Source: Rhodothermales bacterium
Lineage (GTDB): Bacteria > Bacteroidota > Rhodothermia > Rhodothermales > Bin80
Assembly (NCBI GenBank): GCA_958296045.1
Contig: CATQHT010000002.1
Coordinates: 124,001-188,000, forward strand
DNA: 64,000 nucleotides
Direction of reading: 5' to 3'
Within the stretch, counting starts at the first letter, position 1, and each line of letters starts with the position of its first letter. The translations under genes were made by a program, and so were the position numbers. The notes below the pieces were generated by a model. That model saw nothing but the letters and a program-made list of their open reading frames with translations, did no database searches and was not told the DNA's origin. Of this stretch, positions 4,981 to 53,296 are shown one piece after another.

Positions 4981-7320
4981 GTGGAAGAGCAAATCCTTGC
5001 AAATATCGTCTTAGTCATCGTGCTGGGCATTGGAGCCCAGTGGTTGGCGTGGCGCATCAGGATTCCGTCGATCCTGCTGCTTCTGCTCCTAGGGTTTCTT
5101 GCTGGCCCCATCACCGGCATCATCGCGCCGTCGACGCTGCACGGAGAGTGGCTTTTCGCGTTTGTGTCGCTGGCGATTGGCGTGATCCTCTTCGAAGGCG
5201 GCCTTAGCCTTCAGATCAGCGAGCTCAAAGAAGTCGGGCGATCGGTCCGCAACCTGATAACAACAGGAGTGCTGATCACCGGAGCGCTGGCCGGCTTTCT
5301 TGCATGGTGGGTTATTGGCATGTCGCCCGAGGTTGCCATCCTGACCGGAGGCATCCTGACCGTGACCGGGCCCACCGTGGTGATTCCGCTGCTGCGCCAT
5401 GTGCGGCCCAAGGGCCGGGTGAGCACCATCGCCAAATGGGAAGGCATCACCATCGATCCGGTGGGTGCCATTTTGGCGGTCCTGCTTCTGGAGCTGGTGC
5501 TCGCGGTCGGCAGTGCGACCCAGCTGACGGCCCAAGAGACAAACCTGGTGCCAGCATTCATGGCCGCCGCAGAGAGCCTCCTAATCGTGGTGGTGCTCAG
5601 CGTAGGCGTTAGCATCCTTGGTGCGGCACTGCAGGTTATTGTACTTCGAAACCATCTGGTTCCCGACTACCTGCAGGATCCGGCGGCGCTCAGCATTGTG
5701 CTGGCTTCGTTCGCGGCGGCGTACTCGCTAGGGGGCGAAGGGGCAGCACTGCTCACCACCACGCTGATGGGCATCATCCTAGCCAACCAGCCGTGGGTGT
5801 CGGTGCGCCAGATCGTTAAGTTCAAAGAAGATCTGCAGGTGCTGCTTCTGGCCTGCCTATTCATCCTGCTCAGTGCCCGCCTGGAGCTGAGCGTGCTGGA
5901 GTTTGTCGACCAACACGCTTTTATCTACCTAGCTATCCTGATATTGCTGGTGCGTCCGGTAGCGGTGCTGCTCAGCTCCCTGGGGACGGGGCTTAACTGG
6001 CGGGAAAAAGTGTTCATGTCGTGGCTGGCGCCACGCGGCATCGTGGCCGCCGCAGTGGCTGCCCTGTTTGCCGAAAGGCTGGTGGCCGAAGGATATGCGG
6101 GGGCCGCCGGTGACCAGCTTATTGCGATCGTGTACTTGGTTGTAGTGGGGACCGTAGCCGTTTACGGGCTGACGCTTTCTCCGCTGGCGCTCCGCCTGGG
6201 TCTGGCAGACCGGAACCCTCAAGGCATCCTGTTTATGGGGGCTTACCAGTGGGTCCAGGATGTGGCCCTCGCGCTGCGGGAGCTGGGGTTCAGGGTGCTG
6301 CTTATCGATGCCAATGCGCACAACATAGAACAGGCGCGCAGCCGGAAGCTCCCGGCCGTGGTCGCAGACGCTTTGTCGGAGACGGTCACCGACGACCTGG
6401 ACCTAGGCGGCCTCAAGCGTTTTCTGGCGGTCACAGGCAATGACGAAATCAACTCGCTGGCGGCATTGCACTTCACCGAGGTCTTCGAGAAAAAGGAGGT
6501 GTACCAGATCAGGGTAGGCGGCAACGCCGCGGTCACCCAGGTCCGACGCGTGGAACACCTGCGCGGGCGTCCGCTCTTCGGCGATGCCATCACGCAGCTT
6601 TCACTCACGCGCCGTCACCAGGAAGGGGGCGCCGTGTGCACCTTCGGACTGACCGACAAGCAATCATACCAAGCGATCCAAAAGCGCTTCAACGAAAACG
6701 TGGTGCTGCTGTTTGTCGTTCGGGGCGCCAACCTGCTCGTCAATGCGGAGGCCAGTCAGGTAACCCCGCTACCGGGCGACACGGTGGTGGTGATGCTTCC
6801 GCCGGTGACCCGGCTGAAGCTTGCGCCTGGAGCATTGCTTTCTGCCGCTCTGTTGGCACAGGCTGACGTCATAGAGGCAGACGATGCCGCGGCGATGGAC
6901 GACCTTTTGCGCCAGGCGGGCAGGAAGCTGGGTGCGCGCCTCGCTGTAGCGGAAGACACGGTACAGGCGGAGCTCGAGCATCGTGTCCGTAGCGTAGGCG
7001 TGGCCGACGCGGTCGGCAGCGCGCTCGTGCTGCACTTGAGCATTGAAACTGATCGGCCTGCGGCCCTGCTGATGATAAGGAGCCGACGCGGCCTGGCGCT
7101 GACGGCCTCTGGAGCCAAAGAGGTGTTGGTGGTGCACGCCCTCATCGTGGTGGCGACTCCCACGGGACAGGGTCCAGGCGCCAGCCTGCCGCTGAAAGCT
7201 CAGATCGCTGGCATCATCCGGCGGCAGTCCTTTGGCGACGACTGGCTGTCAGCCAAGACGCCGGACGGGCTGCGCAGCGCGCTGGCACCTGACCATGCCA
7301 TAGATGCCAGCGCTACTTAG
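4981..7320 (+). CDS. CPA-type sodium/proton antiporter with C-terminal RCK-like domain
   Basis: The 779-residue membrane protein has about 12 hydrophobic helices in its first 420 residues (from [15 protein letters not shown] onward), the pattern of monovalent cation:proton antiporters. From about residue 420 a soluble nucleotide-binding-like domain follows ([19 protein letters not shown], then LIDANAHN and [15 protein letters not shown]), as in TrkA-N/RCK regulated transporters. The start is a GTG 108 bp from the divergent dehydrogenase start, so the two may share a promoter region. Its stop overlaps the stop of the convergent terC-like gene by 8 bases. The ion specificity is not readable. 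Confidence 0.88.
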
Positions 7321-9214: not shown

Positions 9215-10777
9215 ATGAATTACCGACACCTTATTTGCCTGACTTGGACGATGGCGCTCGCCGCGGGTGGCTTCGGCCAGGTTGAAGGGCTGGGCCAGAC
9301 GGAATTCGCGAATTCGGGCAGTGAGAAGGTTCAGGAGCCCTTCTTGCGCGGATTGCTGCAATTGCACAGCTTTGAATATGAGGATGCGCTGGAAGCTTTT
9401 GCCAAGGCGCGTGCTATCGATCCCGCGTTTGCTATGGCGTACTGGGGGGAGGCGATGGCGCACAACCATCCGGTATGGTTCTCGCAGGACACTGACGAGG
9501 CGCGCGCCGTGCTTGAGGCTTTGGGTCCAACGTTAGAGGATCGGCTAGCCAAAGCGCCGACGCCGCGGGAGAAAGACTATCTCCGAGCAGTCGATGCCTT
9601 GTATTTCGGTGATGAGGACAAGAAGAAGCGCGATTTCAATTACATGGCGGCTATGGAGCGGCTGGCCGACGCCTATCCCAACGATCTGGATGCCAAGGCA
9701 TTCTACTCGCTGTCGCTTCTGGGCTGCAGCCATGGCGGGCGAGACTTTAGCCTATACATGAAGGCCGCAGCAGCGGGGGAGGAGGTGTTTGCGCGCAACC
9801 CCAGGCATCCTGGCGCCGCACACTACCTGATTCATTCGTATGACGATCCGATCCATGCGCCGCTGGGGCTTCGTGCTGCGCAGGCCTACGCGGATATCGC
9901 ACCCTCTGCCGCACATGCGTTGCATATGCCGTCGCACATCTTCACGGCCCTCGGCATGTGGGATCGGGTGGTGCAGTCCAACATAGAATCCTATGATGCG
10001 GCCGAAGAGCGGCGGCTGCGTAAGGATCTGGGCCTTGGCGCGCGGTCCTACCATGCGATACACTGGAAAGCGTACGGGCTGCTGCAGCAGAGCAGGTTTG
10101 ACGAAGCCGCCGAAGCTGTCAAGAGTGTGGCGCACGATGTGGAAGCTTCTAACGGCGGAACGGGCCGGATGCGCTCCTCACTGGCGATGATGAGGGCTGC
10201 CTTTCTGGTCGAAAGCGGCCGGTGGGATTCGGAAGTCGCGGGAATGTCGCTTAACGCCGAGCGGCTAGGTCTGGAGTCACGAGCCAACCACCTCTTTGCT
10301 AACGGTCTGATGGCGCTTAAACAGGGCGACACTGACGCCGCCAGTCGCCATGTCAAGCAGCTGATGGACCTGGAAGGTTCCGGCAAGGGCCGGACGGTGG
10401 CCACAATCTTGCAGCATGAGCTCAAGTCGCTGTTGCTTATAGAGGAAGGACATACGGACGAAGCGGTGAAGCTGCTCAAAAAAGCCGCGGCCATGGAGGC
10501 GGATATGCCATTTGATTTCGGGCCCGTTTCACCGGTCAAGCCGGCTTATGAGCTTTTGGGATCGGTGCTGTTGGGCCAGGGCGACTTTGCAGCCGCACAG
10601 GAGGCATTTGCGAAGGCGTTGGGCCGTGCCCCAAAGCGTGCGCTCTCATTGCGCGGGTTGGCTGCTGCGGCCGAGGGAGCCGCGGATATGGACGTTGCCG
10701 AACATGCTTCTCGCACTCTGGAAGAGATCCGCAAGATGGCCAGCAGCAGCGCGGGCGCTGGAGGTGATCCTCAGTAG
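9215..10777 (+). CDS. Secreted tetratricopeptide-repeat protein
   Basis: The 520-residue protein starts with a signal-peptide-like segment (MNYRHLICLTWTMALAAGGFG) and carries TPR-type helical pairs, for example ALEAFAKARAIDPAFAMAYWG near residue 60 and FAAAQEAFAKALGRAPKRAL near the C-terminus. The middle contains ALHMPSHIFTALGMWD, a segment conserved in a family of periplasmic TPR proteins. No enzymatic motif is seen. It precedes the secreted GHL10 gene by 86 bp in the same direction, so co-expression is possible. Function unknown. Confidence 0.85.
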   Translation: MNYRHLICLTWTMALAAGGFGQVEGLGQTEFANSGSEKVQEPFLRGLLQLHSFEYEDALEAFAKARAIDPAFAMAYWGEAMAHNHPVWFSQDTDEARAVLEALGPTLEDRLAKAPTPREKDYLRAVDALYFGDEDKKKRDFNYMAAMERLADAYPNDLDAKAFYSLSLLGCSHGGRDFSLYMKAAAAGEEVFARNPRHPGAAHYLIHSYDDPIHAPLGLRAAQAYADIAPSAAHALHMPSHIFTALGMWDRVVQSNIESYDAAEERRLRKDLGLGARSYHAIHWKAYGLLQQSRFDEAAEAVKSVAHDVEASNGGTGRMRSSLAMMRAAFLVESGRWDSEVAGMSLNAERLGLESRANHLFANGLMALKQGDTDAASRHVKQLMDLEGSGKGRTVATILQHELKSLLLIEEGHTDEAVKLLKKAAAMEADMPFDFGPVSPVKPAYELLGSVLLGQGDFAAAQEAFAKALGRAPKRALSLRGLAAAAEGAADMDVAEHASRTLEEIRKMASSSAGAGGDPQ

Positions 10778-10863
10778 GGGTATACATCCCGCCAGTACCG
10801 CTTCCTGGCGGTTCGGTATGTCCATTTCCATAGCCATTTCTATTTGACGCACGGAGGCAGTAC

Positions 10864-12669
10864 ATGCGGGTGGTACTTGCACTGATGCTGGCGGCTTATT
10901 GGGTGGGGCCATGGTCGGCTCAAGCGCAGCCTAAGTACGAGTTTCGGGGCGCCTGGATCGCGACGGTGGCCAACCTGGATTGGCCATACCGATTTGATGC
11001 GCCAGCCACGCAGCGGGCGAACCTGTTGGCGATGCTGGACAAGCTCAAGGCTGCAGGCATCAACGCGGTGTTTTTTCAGGTGCGCTCGGAGGCCGACGCG
11101 CTGTATGATTCGCCTTTGGAGCCTTGGTCATACTGGCTGACCGGTCGCCAGGGCCAGGCTCCCGACCCGAGCTATGATCCCTTGGCGTTTGCCATCAGGG
11201 AGGCACACCAGCGTGGGATGGAGCTGCATGCCTGGTTCAATCCGTACCGTGTGCGTGGCAGCTATTCCTATGACCGGGATTCGATACATGTGTCCAAGAC
11301 GCGCCCCGAGCTGTTGTATACTGCGGGGCCGCTGACCCTTATGGATCCCGGCAAGGAGGCCGGGCGCGACTATATCACGTCGGTGATTATGGATGTGGCG
11401 CGCCGCTACGATGTGGATGGGATCCACTTTGATGACTATTTCTATCCGTACCCGCCAAACCATATCACGAACCAGGACACGGCCACGTTCAATAGTGAGA
11501 GCCGTGGCTTTACCAGCCTGGGTGACTGGCGGCGCGACAACGTGAATCTCCTGGTGGCCCAGGTGGCCGACAGCCTGCGTGCCTATGATCGGCTAATCAG
11601 GTGGGGTATCAGCCCTTTTGGCATCTACAAGAACAACGTGCCGGAGGGAATCATCGGCCTGGATGCCTACAACGTGATATATGCGGATCCGCTGGCGTGG
11701 CTGCAGGCCGGAACGGTGGACTATATCGTGCCGCAGCTGTATTGGCCCATTGGCGGCGACCAGGACTACCATGCGCTGGCCCGGTGGTGGGTGGAGCAGC
11801 TCAACGGTCAGCATCTGTACATCGGTCACGGACTGTATCGGGCGGACCCAAACACGTTTGCAGGGACGCTGTTTTCGGCAGAGGAGATCCCGAACCAGAT
11901 CTATTTCAACCGCGGCTATCTGGATATCCTGGGCAGCGTGTTTTTTCGCGCCAAGAACGTGACCGAATACTATTCGCAAGGCATCGTTGACCGGCTGCAA
12001 TCGGAATTCTATCGGTATCCGGCTTTGACGCCTCCGATGCCGGGCAAGGATCAGGCTGCACCGGGCGCGCCCCAACATCTGTCGTATTCGTGGACCGCGG
12101 ACACGGAGTTGTCGCTTACATGGTCTCCGCCGGATTCCACCAGTCCGCGCCGTTATGCGGTCTACCGGGTAAGGTCTCCAGTGCAGCCGGACTTGGATCA
12201 GGCCAGTGAGGATCCCACCAACCTTCTGGCGGTGACGGGCGACACCACACTTATCGACTATCCTGGCGAGGCGCCCTATCCCTACTACTATTTTGTACGC
12301 AGCGTAAGTCGCAATTCTGTAGAGAGCGAGGCACCGATGCCGGTGATGGTGTATGGCCGTGCTACCACGGTGCACCACATGGGCCCCAGAAGGGCTGTCC
12401 ACCTACGTAGCTATCCCAACCCGTTCGCCGAGGCTACGCACATCACGTTTGGGCTTGAGGTCAGCACGGAAGTGACGCTAAGCGTTTACAACGCTCTTGG
12501 TGCACGGGTGCGCACATTGATTGACCGACGCATGCTGAATGCTGGCTCCTACCGTTACGTGTGGGATGGCGCCAGCGATCGTGGAGGCCGCCTTGCCAGT
12601 GGGGCGTACTTTGTACTGCTGAGCACAGGCGCAGAGCGCGTGGTACAGCCTGCGGTGCTGGTGCGGTAA
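10864..12669 (+). CDS. Secreted GHL10 (DUF187) glycoside-hydrolase-like protein with C-terminal sorting domain
   Basis: A good ribosome site (GGAGG, about 7 bases before the ATG) supports this start. After a signal peptide (to about AQAQP) comes the GHL10 barrel: GAWIATVANLDWP, then DGIHFDDYFYPYP and GIYKNNVPEG. A fibronectin-type III-like region follows (about residues 400-490), then a type IX-style sorting domain beginning SYPNPFAEATHITF and continuing YNALGARVRTL. The likely role is binding or cleaving a cell-wall or other glycan outside the cell; the substrate is unknown. The stop codon lies inside the 8-bp duplication made by the IS66-ended element inserted next to it. Confidence 0.9.
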   Translation: MRVVLALMLAAYWVGPWSAQAQPKYEFRGAWIATVANLDWPYRFDAPATQRANLLAMLDKLKAAGINAVFFQVRSEADALYDSPLEPWSYWLTGRQGQAPDPSYDPLAFAIREAHQRGMELHAWFNPYRVRGSYSYDRDSIHVSKTRPELLYTAGPLTLMDPGKEAGRDYITSVIMDVARRYDVDGIHFDDYFYPYPPNHITNQDTATFNSESRGFTSLGDWRRDNVNLLVAQVADSLRAYDRLIRWGISPFGIYKNNVPEGIIGLDAYNVIYADPLAWLQAGTVDYIVPQLYWPIGGDQDYHALARWWVEQLNGQHLYIGHGLYRADPNTFAGTLFSAEEIPNQIYFNRGYLDILGSVFFRAKNVTEYYSQGIVDRLQSEFYRYPALTPPMPGKDQAAPGAPQHLSYSWTADTELSLTWSPPDSTSPRRYAVYRVRSPVQPDLDQASEDPTNLLAVTGDTTLIDYPGEAPYPYYYFVRSVSRNSVESEAPMPVMVYGRATTVHHMGPRRAVHLRSYPNPFAEATHITFGLEVSTEVTLSVYNALGARVRTLIDRRMLNAGSYRYVWDGASDRGGRLASGAYFVLLSTGAERVVQPAVLVR

Positions 12670-42615: not shown

Positions 42616-42886
42616 TGCATATTCCGCTTCAAATCGACCAGTGGTTCCACGGGAAATCGACCACCGATTCCACGGCTAATCGACCAGTGGTTCCACGGGA
42701 AATCGACCACCTGAGCTGGCGCGCGCCGACCGGTGGCGGCGGGGTGTAGGAGGTCGGTTAACGGGCCTGCCAAATTGGCAGTCTGGCGGAGTTAGAAACG
42801 GGTTATTGTTGCCTGTCGCGGGTGATGGCGGCAGGTCAAGCGCAGGTGGTATCGTACCCTCTTTACTTACCAAAAGAGGGGTACTT

Positions 42887-44449
42887 ATGCCAAACAAGAG
42901 GGTTGTTATGCGTGTTTTGTGGGACGTTCTGCGGTTGTCTGCGGAGTCTGATTTGAGCGTACGTGGTATCGGTCGTGCGCTGGGAATATCGCACAGCACG
43001 GTACTTGGTTACTTGCGTCGTGCTAAGGCAGCGGGTGTGCATTGGCCTTTGCCCGAGGGTATGCCGGAGGCCAAGTTGAAGGCATTGCTTTATGGTCCGC
43101 CGGAGGTTGCCAAGGAGACGCGTCCGTTGCCGGACTGGTCCGAGGTGGAGCGTAAGATGCAGGTCAAGGGGTTCACGCGGCGCCTGATGTGGGAGCGGTA
43201 CAGGCGGGACCACAGCGATGGTTACGGCTACAGCAAGTTCTGCGCTCTTTACTCTGCCTGGAAGAAGGAATTCGGCCAGGTGACGGTTCCGATGGATCAT
43301 CCTGCGGGTCATTCGGCCTTCGTGGACTATGCAGGCATGCGCCTGGAGGCGATAGACCAGCTTACGCGTAAGCGGCGTCGGGTGGAGATCTTTGTTGGTG
43401 TGCTGGGATTCTCCAATTATCTCTACGTTGAGGCGACGTGGACGCAGCGTCTTGGGGACTGGCTGGGCTCGCATCGTCGCATGTTCGAGTATTTCGGGGC
43501 GGTGCCTTCCTATGTGGTCTGTGACAATTTGAAGAGTGGCGTGCGCAAGGCCCACCGATACGATCCGGAGATCAATCCGTCGTATCAGGACCTTGCGATG
43601 CACTACAAGACCGTGGTTGTGCCTACGCGTCCCGGGAAGCCCAGGGACAAGGCCAAGGTCGAGCAAGCCGTGTTGCATGCAGAGAGGCGCATTCTGGCTC
43701 CGTTAAGCGATAAGCGTTTCATCGGTCTAGCGCACGTGAACCGGCACATTCGTGTCCGTCTGAAGGAGCTTAACGAGCGGCCTTTTCAGAAGCTGGAAGG
43801 CAGTCGTAAGAGCTGGTTTGACACGTGGGAGCGATCAGCGATGAAGCCCTTGCCAGCGGAGCCGTACGAGCACGCGGAGTGGCGCAAAGCCATGGTGCAC
43901 AGAGATGCGCACATCGAGGTGCGCTGGCACCGTTATAGCGTTCCTTATCGATATGTAGGGCGTTCGGTACAGGTTCGCCTTACAGATACCACCCTTGAGG
44001 TATGTTTTGACGACAAACGGGTGGCGACGCACCCGCGTAGCCACCAGAAAGGGGTCACCACCAAGGATGAACACATGCCGGACGCCCAACGCCAAATGAA
44101 CGATATGAGCCGCTTCGTAACCGAGGCAGAACGCATCGGGCCGGACACACACAATATCGTGCGGCAGATCATCGATGCTGAGCGGCACCCGCTGATTCGT
44201 TACCGCACGCTCATGGGCCTGCTCCGCTTGGCTCGCATCTACGGTAAGAGCCGCATGGAAAACGCGTGTACGCGGGCAATCGCTATCGGCACCCGCTCGT
44301 ACAGGAGCATCGCGTCCATCCTGAAGAATGGACTCGACAAGCATCCGCTGGACTCGGTGTCTCCGCCTCCCATAGACCATGACAACATCCGGGGCCCAAG
44401 CTATTACGACATCAAATCGGATTCTCCTCACCAAACCTCGAAGGACTGA
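42887..44449 (+). CDS. istA: IS21-family transposase IstA
   Basis: The intact 520-residue copy has the same domains as copies 1 and 2. The start is MPNKRVVM, 7 bases after an AGAGGGG stretch that could serve as ribosome site. Small differences from the other copies include RVRLKELNE in place of RVHLKELNE. Confidence 0.95.
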   Translation: MPNKRVVMRVLWDVLRLSAESDLSVRGIGRALGISHSTVLGYLRRAKAAGVHWPLPEGMPEAKLKALLYGPPEVAKETRPLPDWSEVERKMQVKGFTRRLMWERYRRDHSDGYGYSKFCALYSAWKKEFGQVTVPMDHPAGHSAFVDYAGMRLEAIDQLTRKRRRVEIFVGVLGFSNYLYVEATWTQRLGDWLGSHRRMFEYFGAVPSYVVCDNLKSGVRKAHRYDPEINPSYQDLAMHYKTVVVPTRPGKPRDKAKVEQAVLHAERRILAPLSDKRFIGLAHVNRHIRVRLKELNERPFQKLEGSRKSWFDTWERSAMKPLPAEPYEHAEWRKAMVHRDAHIEVRWHRYSVPYRYVGRSVQVRLTDTTLEVCFDDKRVATHPRSHQKGVTTKDEHMPDAQRQMNDMSRFVTEAERIGPDTHNIVRQIIDAERHPLIRYRTLMGLLRLARIYGKSRMENACTRAIAIGTRSYRSIASILKNGLDKHPLDSVSPPPIDHDNIRGPSYYDIKSDSPHQTSKD

Positions 44450-45228
44450 TGCTCCTACACCCTACCCTTGACAAGCTCGAGCAGATGCGTCTGCATGGCA
44501 TGGCGCGCGCGCTGCGTGATCAGCTTACCCAACCGGAAATGGAACAGCTCCCGTTCATGGACCGCCTGGGCCTATTGGTTGACCACGAGGAGATCGTGCG
44601 ATACAACAAGCGCCTGCGGTCGCGCCTACGCCGCGCCCGGTTACGCCAGGAGGCCTCCATGGCCGATCTGGACTATCGTCGCGGTCGCAATCTGGATCGG
44701 CGCCTGATGGCCTCGCTTTCCACCTGCGACTGGGTGGGCAAACATCACAATGTGATCATTACCGGACCCACCGGTGTCGGCAAGAGCTTCGTGGCGTGCG
44801 CGCTGGCGCATAAAGCCTGCATGGAGGGGTTCACCGTACGCTACCACCGACTGCATCGTCTTCTGGAAGATCTGCAACTCGCGCACGGGGACGGACGCTT
44901 CCTGAAACTGCTGAAGCAGTTGACGCGCTTCCACCTACTGGTTCTCGATGACTGGGGGTTGTCACGAATCAGTGCGCTGCACCAGCGGGATCTGCTTGAG
45001 CTCATCGATGATCGGTATCAGAAGGGATCCATCGTCGTTACCAGTCAGATGCCTGTGAGTGTGTGGCACGAAGGCATGGAAGACCCAACACTCGCTGATG
45101 CTATCCTGGATCGCCTCATTCACAATGCACACCACATCGCGCTGAAGGGAGAGTCCATGAGACAGCGTCTGCCACAATGGCAGAACCTTCCAGAGAAGAC
45201 AAGCGTAACTGACGCCAGACAGCCGTGA
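44449..45228 (+). CDS. istB: IstB-like ATP-binding transposition helper
   Basis: The intact 259-residue helper has Walker A GPTGVGKS and begins on the final base of the istA TGA (TGATG). It is almost identical to the other two copies, with HHNVIIT where copy 2 has HHNAIIT. Confidence 0.95.
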   Translation: MLLHPTLDKLEQMRLHGMARALRDQLTQPEMEQLPFMDRLGLLVDHEEIVRYNKRLRSRLRRARLRQEASMADLDYRRGRNLDRRLMASLSTCDWVGKHHNVIITGPTGVGKSFVACALAHKACMEGFTVRYHRLHRLLEDLQLAHGDGRFLKLLKQLTRFHLLVLDDWGLSRISALHQRDLLELIDDRYQKGSIVVTSQMPVSVWHEGMEDPTLADAILDRLIHNAHHIALKGESMRQRLPQWQNLPEKTSVTDARQP

Positions 45229-46423: not shown

Positions 46424-47374
46424 TTACGTGGGGCGGACGTTGCCGCCGCACAAGACCACGGCCACGCGCTTCTGGCTAAATCGCTCCGGGTAAGACAGCA
46501 GCGCCCCCGCCGCCACCCCAGCGGCACCTTCGACGGTCAGTGCCTCCTCGTCAAAAAGCAGCTTTATGGCACGCGCGATCTGTTCTTCGCTTACCAAGAG
46601 CCATTCGTCGACCAGACTCTGGCAGAGCGGGTAGGTGATCGCACCGGGCTCGATGCCGCCGGCCGTGCCGTCGGAAAGCGTGGGCTGCGTACTTCGCGCA
46701 ATGATCCGTCCCGCATTGATGGACTCGTGCATAACTGGGGACGCGGACGGGGAGCAGCCGACGATTCGTGTCCTGGGGCTCACCGCTTTACAGATGGCCG
46801 CGATCCCGCTGATGAGCCCACCGCCTCCCACAGACACTAGGATCGCGTCCAGGTTGGGCACTTGGCGGATCAGCTCCAGCCCTGTGGTGCCTTGCCCGCC
46901 GATGACGGCAGGGTCGTTGTAGGGAGATACGAAGACATGGCCCTGCGCTGTAGCGGTCTGGCGAGCCTCCGTTTCTGCGGCCACCTCGTCAGCTGGCAAG
47001 AGCCGCAGCTGCACATCGTACTTTCGGAGTGCCGCTATCTTGTATGGGCTTGCCGATGAGGGCATCACCAGAGTACAGGCGCAACCGAGGCTTCTGGAAG
47101 CATGCGCCATGGCTAGTGCATGGTTGCCGGTGGATGCTGCCACCACCGGAGGCCTAGGCTGTGGCAAAGAAAGTAGCTTATTGAAGGCCCCCCGAATCTT
47201 AAATGACCCCGTAACTTGCAGATTTTCCAGTTTGAGCCACGCTTCGCATCCAGAAGAGCGGCTGAGCGCCATTGACTGGCGCACCGGTGTTTCAGGGAGC
47301 AAGGACGTCAGGCGAGGCGCAGCGGCCAGCACCTCTCTCAAAGCATCATTGGGGCTCATTTCATTCATCCTCAA
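46424..47374 (-). CDS. Threonine/serine dehydratase (PLP-dependent)
   Basis: The 316-residue fold-type II PLP enzyme deaminates threonine or serine to 2-oxo acids. The PLP lysine is in TGSFKIRGAFNKL, the phosphate-binding loop in SVGGGGLISGIA, and the ASTGNHALAMAHA block binds substrate. There is no C-terminal regulatory ACT domain, so it resembles short catabolic dehydratases or serine racemase-like enzymes. The start may be this codon or the ATG two codons later. Confidence 0.9.
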   Translation of the reverse strand: MRMNEMSPNDALREVLAAAPRLTSLLPETPVRQSMALSRSSGCEAWLKLENLQVTGSFKIRGAFNKLLSLPQPRPPVVAASTGNHALAMAHASRSLGCACTLVMPSSASPYKIAALRKYDVQLRLLPADEVAAETEARQTATAQGHVFVSPYNDPAVIGGQGTTGLELIRQVPNLDAILVSVGGGGLISGIAAICKAVSPRTRIVGCSPSASPVMHESINAGRIIARSTQPTLSDGTAGGIEPGAITYPLCQSLVDEWLLVSEEQIARAIKLLFDEEALTVEGAAGVAAGALLSYPERFSQKRVAVVLCGGNVRPT

Positions 47375-47970
47375 ATTGGGGCCTGAGCCCAGCTCCTGCG
47401 CTGGTACCCGCGAGGGTATAGGCGCAGCGTCGGTAGAGGTGTGGGTGAGCAGGGTTAATCAGCCCTGAAAAAGCTGATGTTCGGGTGCCGAGGCTTTCTG
47501 AGTGTTCGAAAGCACCATCTTCTACGCCACTGATGTTGAGGCGGGGAAGGGTCCCGCGGTGTCCATGAACCCAGGCACGCATGTACGATCTGCAACGGCA
47601 CCAGGGAGGTCTGTCCATTATCCAATCCTTTGGGGAGGGTCGCCTAAGCGTAGGCTAAGTCTGCCCGCTCCCCACGGAATGAACGCGTCTATCGCAATTA
47701 TGCGTGTGGGCGCAGCTATGGGTCTGGCAATGATGTTCAGTTTACGGCAACGAGTAATCCGGCGCAGCACGCTGGCTGGCTATTGATGGCTCGGCGTCCG
47801 TAAGACTACGACATACGGTTGTTCAATGCGCATTTAGGCGCCCATTTGGGGGGAATCAGCTGCATTCGGTGCCGGTGCTGCACCTTTTTTACGCGCCAAT
47901 GGCTGACCCGTCGCTGCGGGACAGGTACAAGAGAGCAAACTGCTCCCATGGGTATGGTGGTCATCAGGCC
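47375..47970. other. Region without a recognised gene
   Basis: Only short frames without motifs. A stretch near 47845 (CATTTAGGCGCC followed by GGTGCCGGTGCTG) vaguely resembles the IS5-like right end near 29413, which hints at further element debris. Confidence 0.35.
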
Positions 47971-48403: not shown

Positions 48404-50005
48404 TCATCCGCCAATTGCTAGCTGACTCGCAATGGCGTCCAGTTTCTCGATTACCTCAGGATGTATCTCTTCCCTTCGCATTTCGGTCGCAATTCTGTAG
48501 CATTCCGCTTCAGCTATCGGGAGTAGAGTCGCTTCACATACTTCCCGCAACACTCCCTTTCTCTTGAAATAATCGTCCCCAAATGGGTCCTCGTAGACTG
48601 CTGGGGGGAATCGGTTTCTCATGTGCCTATCAGCCCTGCTGACCACCGTCTCGTTGGCGAACGAACTAAGCCACCGTAGAATAGCGTCGGGATAGATCAA
48701 GTAGTTCTCAATCTCATACTGCCGCCACACCAATTGTATCATACCGTCTGGACTCGACCTCTCTGTTGCCGTATCCTGCCGATCGTTCCGGTCTCGAAGC
48801 TCCACTCCCCTCAAATCGGGAACACAGCGCTGCATAGCTTGAAAATGTTGCTTCGCGTTCCATCTCTCCTCAGCCATCGGCTTCCAAAACGGCTCCACCA
48901 AGAATTGGTGTACCGGGTGCTCGAGTACTGCCGCCCAGCCCCGCAAAATATGGAGGTCTGTCTTCCCTTCCACGTACAGAATTCGCTTCAGCTGCCGCGC
49001 CATCACCAGCTCAACGTGGTCCAACCTTAGTATATCAAGCAGCTGCTGCGTCTGTCCGACCTCATACAGCCCATCGGATAAGAGCCGTAGCACGTCGACC
49101 CGCGCTTCCCGTATCACGCGCTCGGAGTGCGTTGCAATGATCAGTTGCCAGCCGTGACGCCGCGCTCGATCCCTCAGGTCGCAATAAAGTCTCTCCTGCA
49201 GAATAATGTGCAGATGAGCGTTTGGTTCATCGATCAGTATCACCGACGCGCCGCGTTGGAAGATAGCCGCGTATATCATCACGACTTGCAAGAAACCACT
49301 TGCCGCACTACTGAAACCTAGGCTTGGCGTCGCTGGGCTTTCTCGGTATTCGGCTAGGATTTCGGCACCCGCACTCGGTACCGTCAACTCGTAGCCAAAT
49401 AGCTCTGCGACGATCGCTTTTAGAATGCCCCACTGTTCAGTGTCCTCGCTGACGCCGAGAAGAAGGTTGCGCAGAACGGTCCCACCCTGTCCTCTTGCAA
49501 GTCGCGCGCGGATCACTTCAGGTGGATAACGCTCCTCTTGCAGGTCCACTCCTGACATCGGTGGGATGTAGACGGGCGTACACGGATTCTCTCTATAGTC
49601 ATCCAGAATCGACTCTTGCACGTCTCGCATTGGGCGCAAATCCGCACTAGAACGATCGTTATAGAGGAGTTCGAATCCAATCGGCTTACCATCGATTTGC
49701 AGCCGAATCGACAGCGGATCGGTTACTACGTTCTTCGATGGCCACAAATGATCCCAATTCGGCAACGGAATCGACGAGACACTGTGCGGACTCAAGTTGG
49801 TGCTCGGGTAGTTGCCCTCGTAGTCGCGAGCAAGATCAGGGTTGCACCGTGCCCAGTACGACGCGATCTCAGACCAAAAGGCAATGGCCTGCAGGAGCGT
49901 CGTCTTGCCGCAGTTGTTGGGGCCAACGATTACTGAATGCTTAGCGAGTCTGCAATCAAGCTCCTTGAATCGCTTCAGGTTCCGAATCACTAGTCGCTCA
50001 ATCAC
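48404..50005 (-). CDS. OLD-like ATPase with TOPRIM domain
   Basis: The 533-residue protein has an SMC/ABC-type ATPase: Walker A GPNNCGKTT (about residue 30), a signature-like FSSAASGFLQVV, Walker B SVILIDEPNAHLH and the switch histidine in IIATHSERV. A TOPRIM-type region follows with ILYVEGKTDLHIL (about residue 325), the composition of OLD-family nucleases, many of which act in phage defence. It is the last gene of the minus-strand operon, 7 bp after the DUF6527-like gene. The C-terminal 130 residues are less conserved and unassigned. Confidence 0.88.
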   Translation of the reverse strand: MIERLVIRNLKRFKELDCRLAKHSVIVGPNNCGKTTLLQAIAFWSEIASYWARCNPDLARDYEGNYPSTNLSPHSVSSIPLPNWDHLWPSKNVVTDPLSIRLQIDGKPIGFELLYNDRSSADLRPMRDVQESILDDYRENPCTPVYIPPMSGVDLQEERYPPEVIRARLARGQGGTVLRNLLLGVSEDTEQWGILKAIVAELFGYELTVPSAGAEILAEYRESPATPSLGFSSAASGFLQVVMIYAAIFQRGASVILIDEPNAHLHIILQERLYCDLRDRARRHGWQLIIATHSERVIREARVDVLRLLSDGLYEVGQTQQLLDILRLDHVELVMARQLKRILYVEGKTDLHILRGWAAVLEHPVHQFLVEPFWKPMAEERWNAKQHFQAMQRCVPDLRGVELRDRNDRQDTATERSSPDGMIQLVWRQYEIENYLIYPDAILRWLSSFANETVVSRADRHMRNRFPPAVYEDPFGDDYFKRKGVLREVCEATLLPIAEAECYRIATEMRREEIHPEVIEKLDAIASQLAIGG

Positions 50006-50012
50006 GCCTATT

Positions 50013-50360
50013 CTACTTTAGCACTCGTAGGGGTGGGGCCCCGACCCACACGACACATCCTCGTCGCAGCCAATAGTGGCAATCGCACGGCAGCCCGGTG
50101 ACACGCACAGATGGCGTGAGTGATATGCGGCCAGTGCTGTGCTCATGGACACGCCACCTGCACCATGCCTCTGGCGAAAGGTCCAGATGGATCACCTCGC
50201 TACAACGACGTCGGGAACAGACTATCGCAGCGTAGAATGGATGCCGACGACCTCCAACAATGTAGATCGTATTCCGCCGTGGCGCAGGCGGCAGATCTTC
50301 GACCCATTCCGTTCGGTAAGGGTGCACTCGAGCCCACGCATTCCATAACAGCCTAATCAT
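50013..50360 (-). CDS. DUF6527-like zinc-binding protein
   Basis: The 115-residue protein (MIRLLWNAWARVHPYRTEWV) has a C-rich block (AIVCSRRRCSEVIHLDLS), SLTPSV and the diagnostic CDCHYWLRRGCVVW. Paired Cys and Cys/His positions suggest metal binding. DUF6527 proteins are, to my knowledge, often encoded beside prokaryotic ubiquitin-like genes. The start ATG overlaps the JAB-E1 stop by 8 bases (ATGATTAG), implying coupled translation. A longer upstream open frame overlaps JAB-E1 and is rejected. Confidence 0.72.
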   Translation of the reverse strand: MIRLLWNAWARVHPYRTEWVEDLPPAPRRNTIYIVGGRRHPFYAAIVCSRRRCSEVIHLDLSPEAWCRWRVHEHSTGRISLTPSVRVTGLPCDCHYWLRRGCVVWVGAPPLRVLK

Positions 50361-51780
50361 GGGCAATGTTGTTTCGCACGAGCAGACTCTGGTCGCCAGC
50401 CCCAATGTACGGCCGCAAGAGACGGTGTGGTTTCTCCCGATCAGCGTCGATCTCGAAGGAGCCATGAACCAGCCGAAAGCGTTGCGTAGTGAATTCCTCG
50501 TTGGCGTCAAGGCGGAACCCAGAGACACGCGCTAAGAAGTCGTTGAAGGCGAGACAGGAGGCCTGCATGTTGATCGACATTACGGCAGGCTGGTCTTCCC
50601 CAACCGCCGCCAAGTAATCCGCCCGGCGCTGTTGCTCATAATACGCTGGATCCGTATGGTGCCACAGTTCCGCAGTTACCTGGTCCATGGTGTAGACGCC
50701 ACGCGAAAGGAGGCTACCGCCCTCAGGATGCACGTAGTGTGCAACGGCGTCGGCCGCATGGATACCTTCATCTCCATCCGCATCAAGGTGCACCCCGACA
50801 TCGAAGTACGGGATCAGGTACGCGCTGGCGATGCAGTCCAAGTGATAGCGACCGAACGCTGTATCCACGCATCCGAAGATCACATCGCAATCAATTAGCG
50901 CCCTGACAATGGCAGCCGAATCGGTGATTCCTTCAAGCGCATGGACGACAGTCCCAAGGCCGATCCTATCGTCGGCCTCCTTTAACGCCAATACCTTAGG
51001 CTTTTGTAGTTCCGCATCGGCGGATGTACTATTGACAATTCGGTTAAGATTAATGGTGTCCAACGTATCGTGATCGACAATGACCAATTCTCGAACGGCG
51101 TTACGAGTCAGCAATTCCACAATGATGCTGCCGGTACCGGAACAACCTACTACTCCGACACGCATCCCCCTGAGCAGCTTGAGCGTCCCTTGTCCAAACG
51201 TCTGCTTAAGCCGGGTTTCGTGTGGCTCTGCCGAACCCGCTGTTGCTTGTCTCCAGCATCTGATCTCGTCACCAATAACAGCGACTGTCTGGATCGCCTC
51301 AAATGCTCTCGCTTCATCGACTGTTCGTGCCCTAATAACCCCGTCAGCTTGCATCACTGCTGCTCCGTGGGGCCTTTCGTCATCGAACCAACCTGAGACG
51401 GATGGCAGTAGCACTTGATCGTTCTTGTCGTTAATAGCTGAAAACCGCGCCTGGCCCGTGGGATGAGAGTGTATCGTAACCAGCGACTGATTTCGTCGAT
51501 CGATATCAGTGATCAGTTCGGGCGACACAATCTCGGCAAAAGGCCACAACACCTCGTCGGATTGCTGGTGGCATGTCTCGTATGGAGGGCAAATGACATC
51601 CGCCACGAGAAGCCGTTGCCCAAGCTTACCAGTTCCTCGGTTGCAAATGAGAATCGCTGATAATGAGCAACCTCCTGCACATTGTGCTTCGTTACCGTCA
51701 GGCTGGTGAAAAGCGTCGTGTAGAAGGTCTGCTTGTAGGTGCCCTGCTTTTGGCGTACGCGCACGGTCTTTTCCACCCAT
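50353..51780 (-). CDS. JAB (JAMM) protease fused to E1-like ThiF enzyme, 5' end uncertain
   Basis: The N-terminal JAB domain begins near LLHDAFHQPDGNEA (putative JAMM glutamate) and carries TIHSHPTGQARFSAIND; the HxHP is intact but the expected final aspartate position is Asn. From about residue 205 follows an E1/ThiF domain with GVVGCSGTGSIIVELL, VIVDHDTLDTINLNR, FGCVDT and a long C-terminal helix region. Such fusions remove or activate ubiquitin-like proteins. The first 20-30 codons overlap a transposase relic in another frame; ATG 51780 is the best available start, but the true one may be lost. First gene of the JAB-E1/DUF6527/OLD operon. Confidence 0.75.
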   Translation of the reverse strand: MGGKDRARTPKAGHLQADLLHDAFHQPDGNEAQCAGGCSLSAILICNRGTGKLGQRLLVADVICPPYETCHQQSDEVLWPFAEIVSPELITDIDRRNQSLVTIHSHPTGQARFSAINDKNDQVLLPSVSGWFDDERPHGAAVMQADGVIRARTVDEARAFEAIQTVAVIGDEIRCWRQATAGSAEPHETRLKQTFGQGTLKLLRGMRVGVVGCSGTGSIIVELLTRNAVRELVIVDHDTLDTINLNRIVNSTSADAELQKPKVLALKEADDRIGLGTVVHALEGITDSAAIVRALIDCDVIFGCVDTAFGRYHLDCIASAYLIPYFDVGVHLDADGDEGIHAADAVAHYVHPEGGSLLSRGVYTMDQVTAELWHHTDPAYYEQQRRADYLAAVGEDQPAVMSINMQASCLAFNDFLARVSGFRLDANEEFTTQRFRLVHGSFEIDADREKPHRLLRPYIGAGDQSLLVRNNIAHD

Positions 51781-52686
51781 GTGCCGTGTACGGCATCGTT
51801 CGTGTTCCGAATCGGCAGATCGGTCATCCAGCGATAGCAGTGCTCTTCGTAGCGACGTGTCTTCTTGTTCTGCACCCGGATCCAACCGGTGCTCTGGATA
51901 TAGCGCTCGTGTAAAAACTTGAATAGCGTGGCGACTTGGGTTTGACCACAAACAGGAAATCGGCGCCCGCATGGAGCACCTGTTGGCAGAAGGGGTGTGT
52001 AGCATATAGGGCATCTCCCAGATATACCGGACGATAGCGAGCCATGCGAGCTCCCCACTTCGTTAACCACCGCTTAGCGGCATTGATCTCGCAATCCTGC
52101 TTGCGACGCCACACCGAGTGCTGATCGCCAGGATCATCCTGTGTGCGGACAAACTCTGGCATCAACGGTACCACCCGGTTGTGCCCCGGCGCCACCACAA
52201 CCGCCGCCACCATGGTATGGAAGAACGAGGGACGCTTGTCTTTGCCCGTGCGACGAGAGGAGCACTGCTGACAATGATTGTCCGAGAGGAATGAAACTCG
52301 ATGCCATCAAGCGCCACGAGGATGCGATCCCTCAGACGTACAAACGGCGGAAAGTCTCCCTTGGAACGAAGCGTATCCAGCAGGTGCAGAAACAGGAGCT
52401 GAAATGAATCTGGCACCAGGCGGTCCAGCAGGTTGCGGATCTGCCCGTCAGAGGGAATGCCTTGCATGCCAAATAGCGTCTGGCAGTTGGAACGGCCCAC
52501 GTCGTCCTGCATCCTCCGCTGAAAAGCAAGAAAGGAGGGCGATTGCAGAAAGAAGCAGGCAAATGCGCTCAACACGGCATCGGCCAGCGTGTAGCGCAGA
52601 TTGGGCCCCTGACGGTTATCCTCAAATGCATCGGCGGCCTATCGGATGCGTTTCAGCACATCGCGCAGCAGCTTGTTTGGTTTCAT
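51690..52686 (-). pseudogene. Decayed DDE transposase next to the JAB-E1 operon
   Basis: The minus-strand frame starts MKPNKLLRDVLKRIR, stops (TAG), then continues GPNLRYTLADAVLSAFACFF, SNCQTLFGMQGIPSDGQIRN and ILVALDGIEFHSS. After a frameshift it gives VVAPGHNRVVPLMPEFV, CEINAAKRWL and YRPVYLGDALYATHPFC. A further frame contains EEHCYRWMTDLPIR and GTYKQTF. These are successive blocks of one transposase family with an LFGMxxIPSD signature. The 3' end is missing where the JAB gene begins. Confidence 0.75.
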
Positions 52687-53296
52687 GGGTGCACCTCAGA
52701 GTGGAAGACAAAAGCACCCTATAGCAGGGCATCGCAGGACCGGTATTGCCAGTCCATACACACATCATATACATAACGTCTGCTGAACAGGCATTCTCGT
52801 AAACCCTACATGCACCCAAATTTAGAATCGCTGTACTCGAAAGAATTCTGGCGCCGGGCCGAGTGATTGTGCGCTATTTTGAACGCGAAGGCCTTGAGGA
52901 AAGTGTCGCCTCTTGCACAATGATGTCCAACAGGCAGCGTGATGCTTGGTCAGAAGGATTCTTCGACCGGCACGAATGCAATCTCACCCGATGGCCCGGA
53001 CTTCCTGCCGCAAAGGTGGGCGAATTGCGAATCTTGCAGGAACACTTGAATAATCTTGAAATTGCCTGGTGTTATCGAGGTCTGGACCCGAGCCCAAGCG
53101 CCTTAGCTTCCTCGAGCGTACCGTTCAGACGATTCGGCACCCCAAGTCAGGCCGTACAACGACCCTCGGCGCGCCACACCGGAACCGAGCGGCCAACAAG
53201 ATGCGTGATTGCACGTGGTCAGACCTATTCGTGGATAAAGCTCGAGGGAAGGTAGGCATAAGGTTGGCCTGCGTGCTCGGGTCCCGCAAAGATATC
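52687..53296. other. Region without a confident gene
   Basis: Two overlapping plus-strand frames (52863-53255 and 53069-53329) contain no recognised domain, and the sequence looks non-conserved. No E2 or ubiquitin-like gene that could complete the neighbouring operon is seen. Confidence 0.35.

Follow-up and report, generated by a model that had tools for sequence, protein, structure and literature searches.

The closest described relatives of the locus considered here are the group 6e polyUbl operons, which encode a polyUbl, an inactive E2/RWD-like protein, a fusion of JAB and E1 domains and a metal-binding protein (Iyer 2006, PMC1779556), and the Bub operons, of which 544 have been identified, many with CapW, CapH and CapP, or CapK and CapS regulators (PMC13373217). 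The same source states that Bub has yet to be shown to protect against phages. As their gene contents match, we infer that group 6e and Bub describe one type of operon. TOPRIM-ATPase proteins, in turn, occur in many defense systems, and some are proven nucleases (PMC12409363). In the literature searched, with the gene lists of Ye 2026 and Gong 2025 outside the comparison, we found neither an ATPase-TOPRIM gene appended to a Bub operon nor a described effector of Bub operons. An earlier note on this DNA knew of no described system that combines JAB-E1, DUF6527 and an OLD ATPase and lacks E2 and ubiquitin-like genes; the operon family itself is already described as group 6e/Bub, and what stands of that claim is the appended ATPase, undescribed in the literature searched.

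The window, by which we mean the whole 64,000-nucleotide stretch that was analyzed (contig CATQHT010000002.1 of a Rhodothermales bacterium, positions 124,001 to 188,000), carries three minus-strand ORFs at this locus. We take the name BubE to apply to the DUF6527 gene that follows BubCD. The features are:

48404–50005, minus strand: ATPase fused to a TOPRIM-like domain (OLD / PARIS AriAB / PtuA-like), 533 aa, GTG start, ORF intact
50013–50360, minus strand: BubE (DUF6527, PF20137), 115 aa, intact; PF20137 match with E = 1.8e-12
50353–51657, minus strand: BubCD (JAB-E1 fusion), 5'-truncated, 3' end at 50353, assigned from PDB 9ea4, an alignment of 29 relatives and boundary mapping; JAB lacks its first ~32 residues and the JAMM Glu and has the JAMM Asp changed to Asn, whereas the E1 (ThiF) domain is whole
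51658–51664, minus strand: junction of IS piece and JAB; an exact 30-mer of the IS ends at 51665 and JAB-like codons run from 51657
51665–52833, minus strand: 5' 1,169 bp of an insertion sequence (IS) of 1,716 bp; transposase frame-broken, 3' 547 bp missing
52817–52833, minus strand: left terminal inverted repeat of the IS, CAGCGATTCTAAATTTG

These three genes are very probably what is left of the 3' part of a variant Bub operon with the order BubA-BubB-BubCD-BubE-ATPase-TOPRIM, the front of which was lost by an IS-associated deletion. Their tight packing was described correctly in the earlier note: JAB-E1 and DUF6527 overlap by 8 nt (50353–50360), and 7 nt (50006–50012) separate DUF6527 from the ATPase. 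It placed the start of JAB-E1 at 51780, but no gene begins there: the ATG lies inside the IS, and homology to the closest JAB-E1 relative (locus L002, 79% identity) begins only at 51657. Because 51665–52833 is a piece of the IS, the first ~40 codons of that ORF are IS DNA, in a frame that differs from that of the transposase.

About 20 near-full copies of the IS, with 91–97% identity, are found in the window's genome, and a complete, 1,716-bp copy in locus L066 has a 9-bp target duplication and ends in inverted repeats of 17 bp. In the window, the IS runs directly into JAB at codon ~33. The 3' end of the IS, BubA, BubB and the N-terminus of JAB are all gone at this point, and we therefore conclude, from this one junction, that an IS-associated deletion probably removed them. 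The JAB sequence at the junction (51645–51659) matches the terminal repeat of the IS (52819–52833) in 13 of 15 bases, and possibly served as a pseudo-end in the deletion. Of the two guesses originally offered for this locus, a minimal or a truncated system, the second is thus borne out by the IS junction and by the lost BubA, BubB and JAB N-terminus. The window copy is a case of ordinary decay, and illustrates how such an operon dies by an IS plus a deletion, with the front half lost first. The region is rich in IS elements: an IS21-type pair, consisting of a transposase (rve, Mu-transpos_C_2) and an IstB helper, lies at 42806–45228 on the plus strand. The search for RNA families returned a single match, part of a group II intron (Rfam RF02005, 55.9 bits) at 47361–47571, also on the plus strand and ~0.8 kb past the 3' end of the operon remnant.

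In a phmmer search of the PDB, the window JAB-E1 matched the Citrobacter BubCD structure 9ea4 (E = 3.9e-60), as did its relative from L004 (E = 4.2e-74), and the reading of JAB plus E1 as ubiquitin-like conjugation and removal was right. Pfam identified a ThiF domain (E = 1.1e-18), which is single and fused to JAB, and a partial Prok-JAB domain (E = 1.9e-4) that falls under the Pfam cut-off. JAB/JAMM proteases require a glutamate together with their metal ligands. From the JAMM motif (Glu, HxH, Ser, Asp), the window copy keeps HxH and Ser; the glutamate, which is present in 28 of 28 aligned relatives, is lost, and the aspartate, present in 29 of 29, has become asparagine. The E38A mutant of the Cap3 JAB protease is a loss-of-function mutant (PMC10449767), and E38 is taken to be the counterpart of the glutamate missing here. 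Judging from these residues, the window JAB protease should be dead.

The other missing parts are BubA and BubB. Neither a multi-ubiquitin protein (BubA) nor a Prok-E2_E protein (BubB) was found in the window or in its genome, while both are present in intact relatives. A Ubl or E2 located elsewhere in the genome was considered and rejected, since the searches were negative and the positive controls worked, both families being detected in four related genomes; as the assembly is 96.7% complete, a distant Ubl or E2 gene could be missing from it. We file the window copy as a remnant rather than a functional Bub member because BubA and BubB are absent, and without them, Ubl conjugation by this copy would presumably not be possible.

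A scan of genomes for JAB-E1 relatives yielded 30 loci, 22 of which are close (L002–L023, 48–79% identity). Ubl and E2 genes lie directly upstream in all 22 close loci, either separate or fused. The genes upstream of BubCD in the relatives match BubB (PDB 9eae, 4.2e-20) and multi-ubiquitin (PDB 9cd2), with Pfam matches to Prok-E2_E (1.4e-28) and Multi_ubiq (1.3e-11). In intact loci, the C-terminus of BubA reads ...QAQQG, followed by a tail or a fused BubB, and the alignment of BubB contains an invariant WQRWSRH motif and no conserved Cys. Bub E1 and E2 may use serine oxyesters; the Cys-less E2 alignment is only consistent with that.

The other guess of the earlier note, a minimal system, would have the truncated JAB-E1, DUF6527 and the ATPase-nuclease act without Ubl or E2; E1 could, for example, adenylate a partner at its C-terminus, as happens in type II CBASS. 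E1s of the ThiF type adenylate the C-termini of Ubls, and here E1 has an open frame that keeps its adenylation motifs; the overlap and short gap also still couple the three genes, and dN/dS between the window and L002 is low (see below). However, this reading fails the test that the earlier note itself set for it, as all 22 close relatives carry Ubl and E2 upstream; moreover, the IS junction, which cuts into JAB, has deprived the gene of its native start, and neither the Glu nor the Asp of JAMM is left. We consider such a minimal system highly improbable.

DUF6527 is the regular gene after BubCD and follows JAB-E1 directly in the window; within the phylum, a BubCD-like gene likewise precedes most of the strong matches to DUF6527. 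The window BubE is 83% identical to that of L002, with C48, C92 and H95 invariant among relatives and C53 nearly so. Its sequence comparison gave no meaningful match, and its AlphaFold model (pLDDT 87) found no fold match in the PDB. From its position and the conserved Cys and His residues, it is presumably the metal-binding protein of group 6e, and it looks like the zinc-binding companion that was originally proposed.

An ATPase-TOPRIM gene is found downstream in 15 of the 22 close loci, from six phyla (Chloroflexota, Latescibacterota, Nitrospirota, a Dadabacteria MAG, Rhodothermales/Bacteroidota and Pseudomonadota), always on the same strand and directly behind BubE (BubCD in L014), in most cases with an overlap or close to one. 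Among these 15, the ATPase runs off the contig in L002 and is frame-broken in L003, L010 and L013. The gene is absent from the other seven (L011, L017–L022), from eight plasmid Bub loci (0/8, within the stretches read) and from five less closely related Bub loci in the host order (G004, G011, G051, G052 and G058; 0/5, within the stretches read). One could argue that Bub and the ATPase are unrelated neighbors in a defense-rich region, adjacent without a functional link, as the 7 of 22 close and 13 of 13 more distant loci without the ATPase and the existence of solo ATPase homologs would suggest. This is doubtful, however, given the conserved placement in 15 loci and six phyla and the distribution of the gene: in the host order, all three genomes with a close BubCD carry the ATPase, versus 22 of 395 genomes of the phylum with any homolog at E ≤ 1e-20. 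G029, of the same order as the window genome, and G010, of the same family, have the sequences of L008 and L014. The search for an OLD ATPase recurring beside JAB-E1, proposed in the earlier note, returned an association that is probably not accidental. The ATPase-TOPRIM gene recurs as an addition to the Bub operon, but one that can be dispensed with.

Several other observations were made on these relatives. A divergently oriented pair of HTH and M78/IrrE peptidase genes, CapH/CapP-like, lies beside the Bub operon in L004 (5517–6721, minus strand), with similar pairs in L003, L005, L012, L024 and L029. Another Bub sub-lineage (L021, L017 and L018), without the ATPase-TOPRIM gene, has as neighbors an AAA_15 ATPase pair, a ResIII helicase or both, and other large genes (in L021, at 5415–7251 and 9716–12526). 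Decay is common in these operons: BubE is missing in L014 and a stop codon interrupts JAB in L015, in addition to the frame-broken ATPases. The MAG titles of several relatives suggest sponge and marine sources.

The ATPase matched the Pfam families AAA_15 (1.3e-15) and AAA_21 (7.5e-15). Its best PADLOC match was AriAB over residues 254–452 (2.2e-21), although this is weak at 74 bits and many other ATPase families scored nearly equally. The AlphaFold model (pLDDT 88.4) was closest by Foldseek to the OLD nuclease 6p74 (E = 8.9e-13), followed by PtuA and GajA, with query-length TM-scores of only 0.30–0.42 and 12–18% identity. Walker A, the DE motif and TOPRIM-type E346, D350, D405, E431 and E433 are kept, and E346, D350 and D405 are invariant in 21 relatives. 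D262N, a change adjoining Walker B, is private to the window protein (D in 21 of 21 others); across 91 sites that do not otherwise vary, this protein has eight such changes, and L007, L068 and L069 carry similar loads. Motifs and models suggest an ABC ATPase with a TOPRIM effector, as in PARIS, and a C-terminal TOPRIM acidic motif, as in OLD. The earlier reading of this gene as an OLD-type TOPRIM protein therefore holds at the level of architecture, from the ABC-type ATPase motifs and TOPRIM-type acidic residues, with nuclease action as a prediction.

Three homologs of this family (L068, L069 and L070; 41–48% identity) are intact and have no Bub remnants nearby. A tree of the ATPases requires four switches between Bub-linked and solo genes; a single clade of Bub-linked ATPases is unsupported, since the solo genes nest inside it. 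The ATPase gene can thus stand alone. A second, diverged solo homolog (33% identity) is found in the window's genome at G000:C1:686029-687432 (L071:6027-7760), without Bub genes. Carriage by viruses was considered and rejected: viral contigs gave distant homologs only (≤31% identity over most of the length), and there were none in phage records.

It could well be, at somewhat short of an even chance, that only the ATPase-TOPRIM is still under selection, as a mobile single-gene OLD/PARIS-like defense gene that travels with Bub and outlasts it, with BubE and E1 as passengers. The solo homologs nested among Bub-linked genes fit this explanation, as do the intact window ORF and its retained catalytic residues; the eight private changes, including D262N, speak against it, though similar loads occur elsewhere, as does the broken frame of the ATPase in three other Bub loci. 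Between the window and L002, dN/dS is 0.21 for JAB, 0.13 for E1, 0.13 for BubE and 0.19 for the first 226 codons of the ATPase. E1, BubE and the ATPase retain open frames, and their low ratios (0.13–0.19) show purifying selection since the split from L002, a signal that mostly reflects the time before the deletion. As these averages mix selection before and after the deletion, there is room for residual function. Private changes at invariant sites of JAB are mildly raised (3/37). Relaxed selection after the deletion was considered, and neither dN/dS nor the counts of private changes were decisive on it.

Returning to the remnant of a variant Bub operon, its intact counterpart would be switched on by DNA-damage-responsive CapH/CapP-like regulators. 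JAB would free the C-terminus of BubA from its tail or from a fused BubB, probably cutting at ...QAQQG, because BubA ends there before that extension. E1 would then adenylate BubA, and the E2, which has no conserved Cys and carries an invariant WQRWSRH, would pass it to targets. BubE would have a companion role, and the ATPase-TOPRIM would supply an OLD/PARIS-type nuclease arm. In the window copy, function could remain only in BubE and in the predicted ATPase-nuclease, which might act alone as a defense gene. An unlikely extension is that the intact relatives carry a five-gene defense system. Conjugation by Bub, together with BubE, would then control the ATPase-TOPRIM nuclease, for example by modifying or releasing it, and a ubiquitin-like tag would be the switch of an OLD/PARIS-type toxin. 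The linked ATPase-TOPRIM gene, with 15 loci in six phyla, is a candidate Bub effector or partner, for which intact operons are available for testing. The five-gene variant of Bub with an OLD/PARIS-like nuclease is a modest novelty, and the sole point of interest here.

The locus can thus be placed among known systems. With Bil (BilABCD) and the Cap2/Cap3 proteins of type II CBASS, Bub-type operons share Ubl-type conjugation with JAB deconjugation, but in those systems JAB is separate and E1 and E2 are Cys-based, whereas here JAB is fused to E1 and the E2 has no conserved Cys. Bil has a separate JAB, BilC, and its E1, BilD, contains both inactive and active adenylation domains, in contrast to the single ThiF domain fused to JAB here; type II CBASS has a CD-NTase, which was not seen among the neighbors examined, and a fusion of E1 with E2 rather than with JAB. 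OLD, GajA and PtuA (Septu, retron) are the best fold matches of the window ATPase and share its ATPase core, but genes for GajB, PtuB or a reverse transcriptase were not recognized beside the ATPase in the loci read. As in PARIS, which is triggered by Ocr and consists of an AriA ATPase and an AriB TOPRIM tRNase, or a fused AriAB, the window protein has an ATPase followed by a TOPRIM-like domain, here in one chain; it differs in its weak AriAB match and frequent linkage to Bub. The nearest system is Bub, with which the window shares BubCD directly before DUF6527, and the intact relatives share multi-ubiquitin and a Cys-less Prok-E2_E upstream, often with the HTH and M78 peptidase pair. The window differs in lacking BubA, BubB and the JAB N-terminus and, unlike the eight plasmid Bub loci, the window and 15 of its 22 close relatives add the ATPase-TOPRIM gene.
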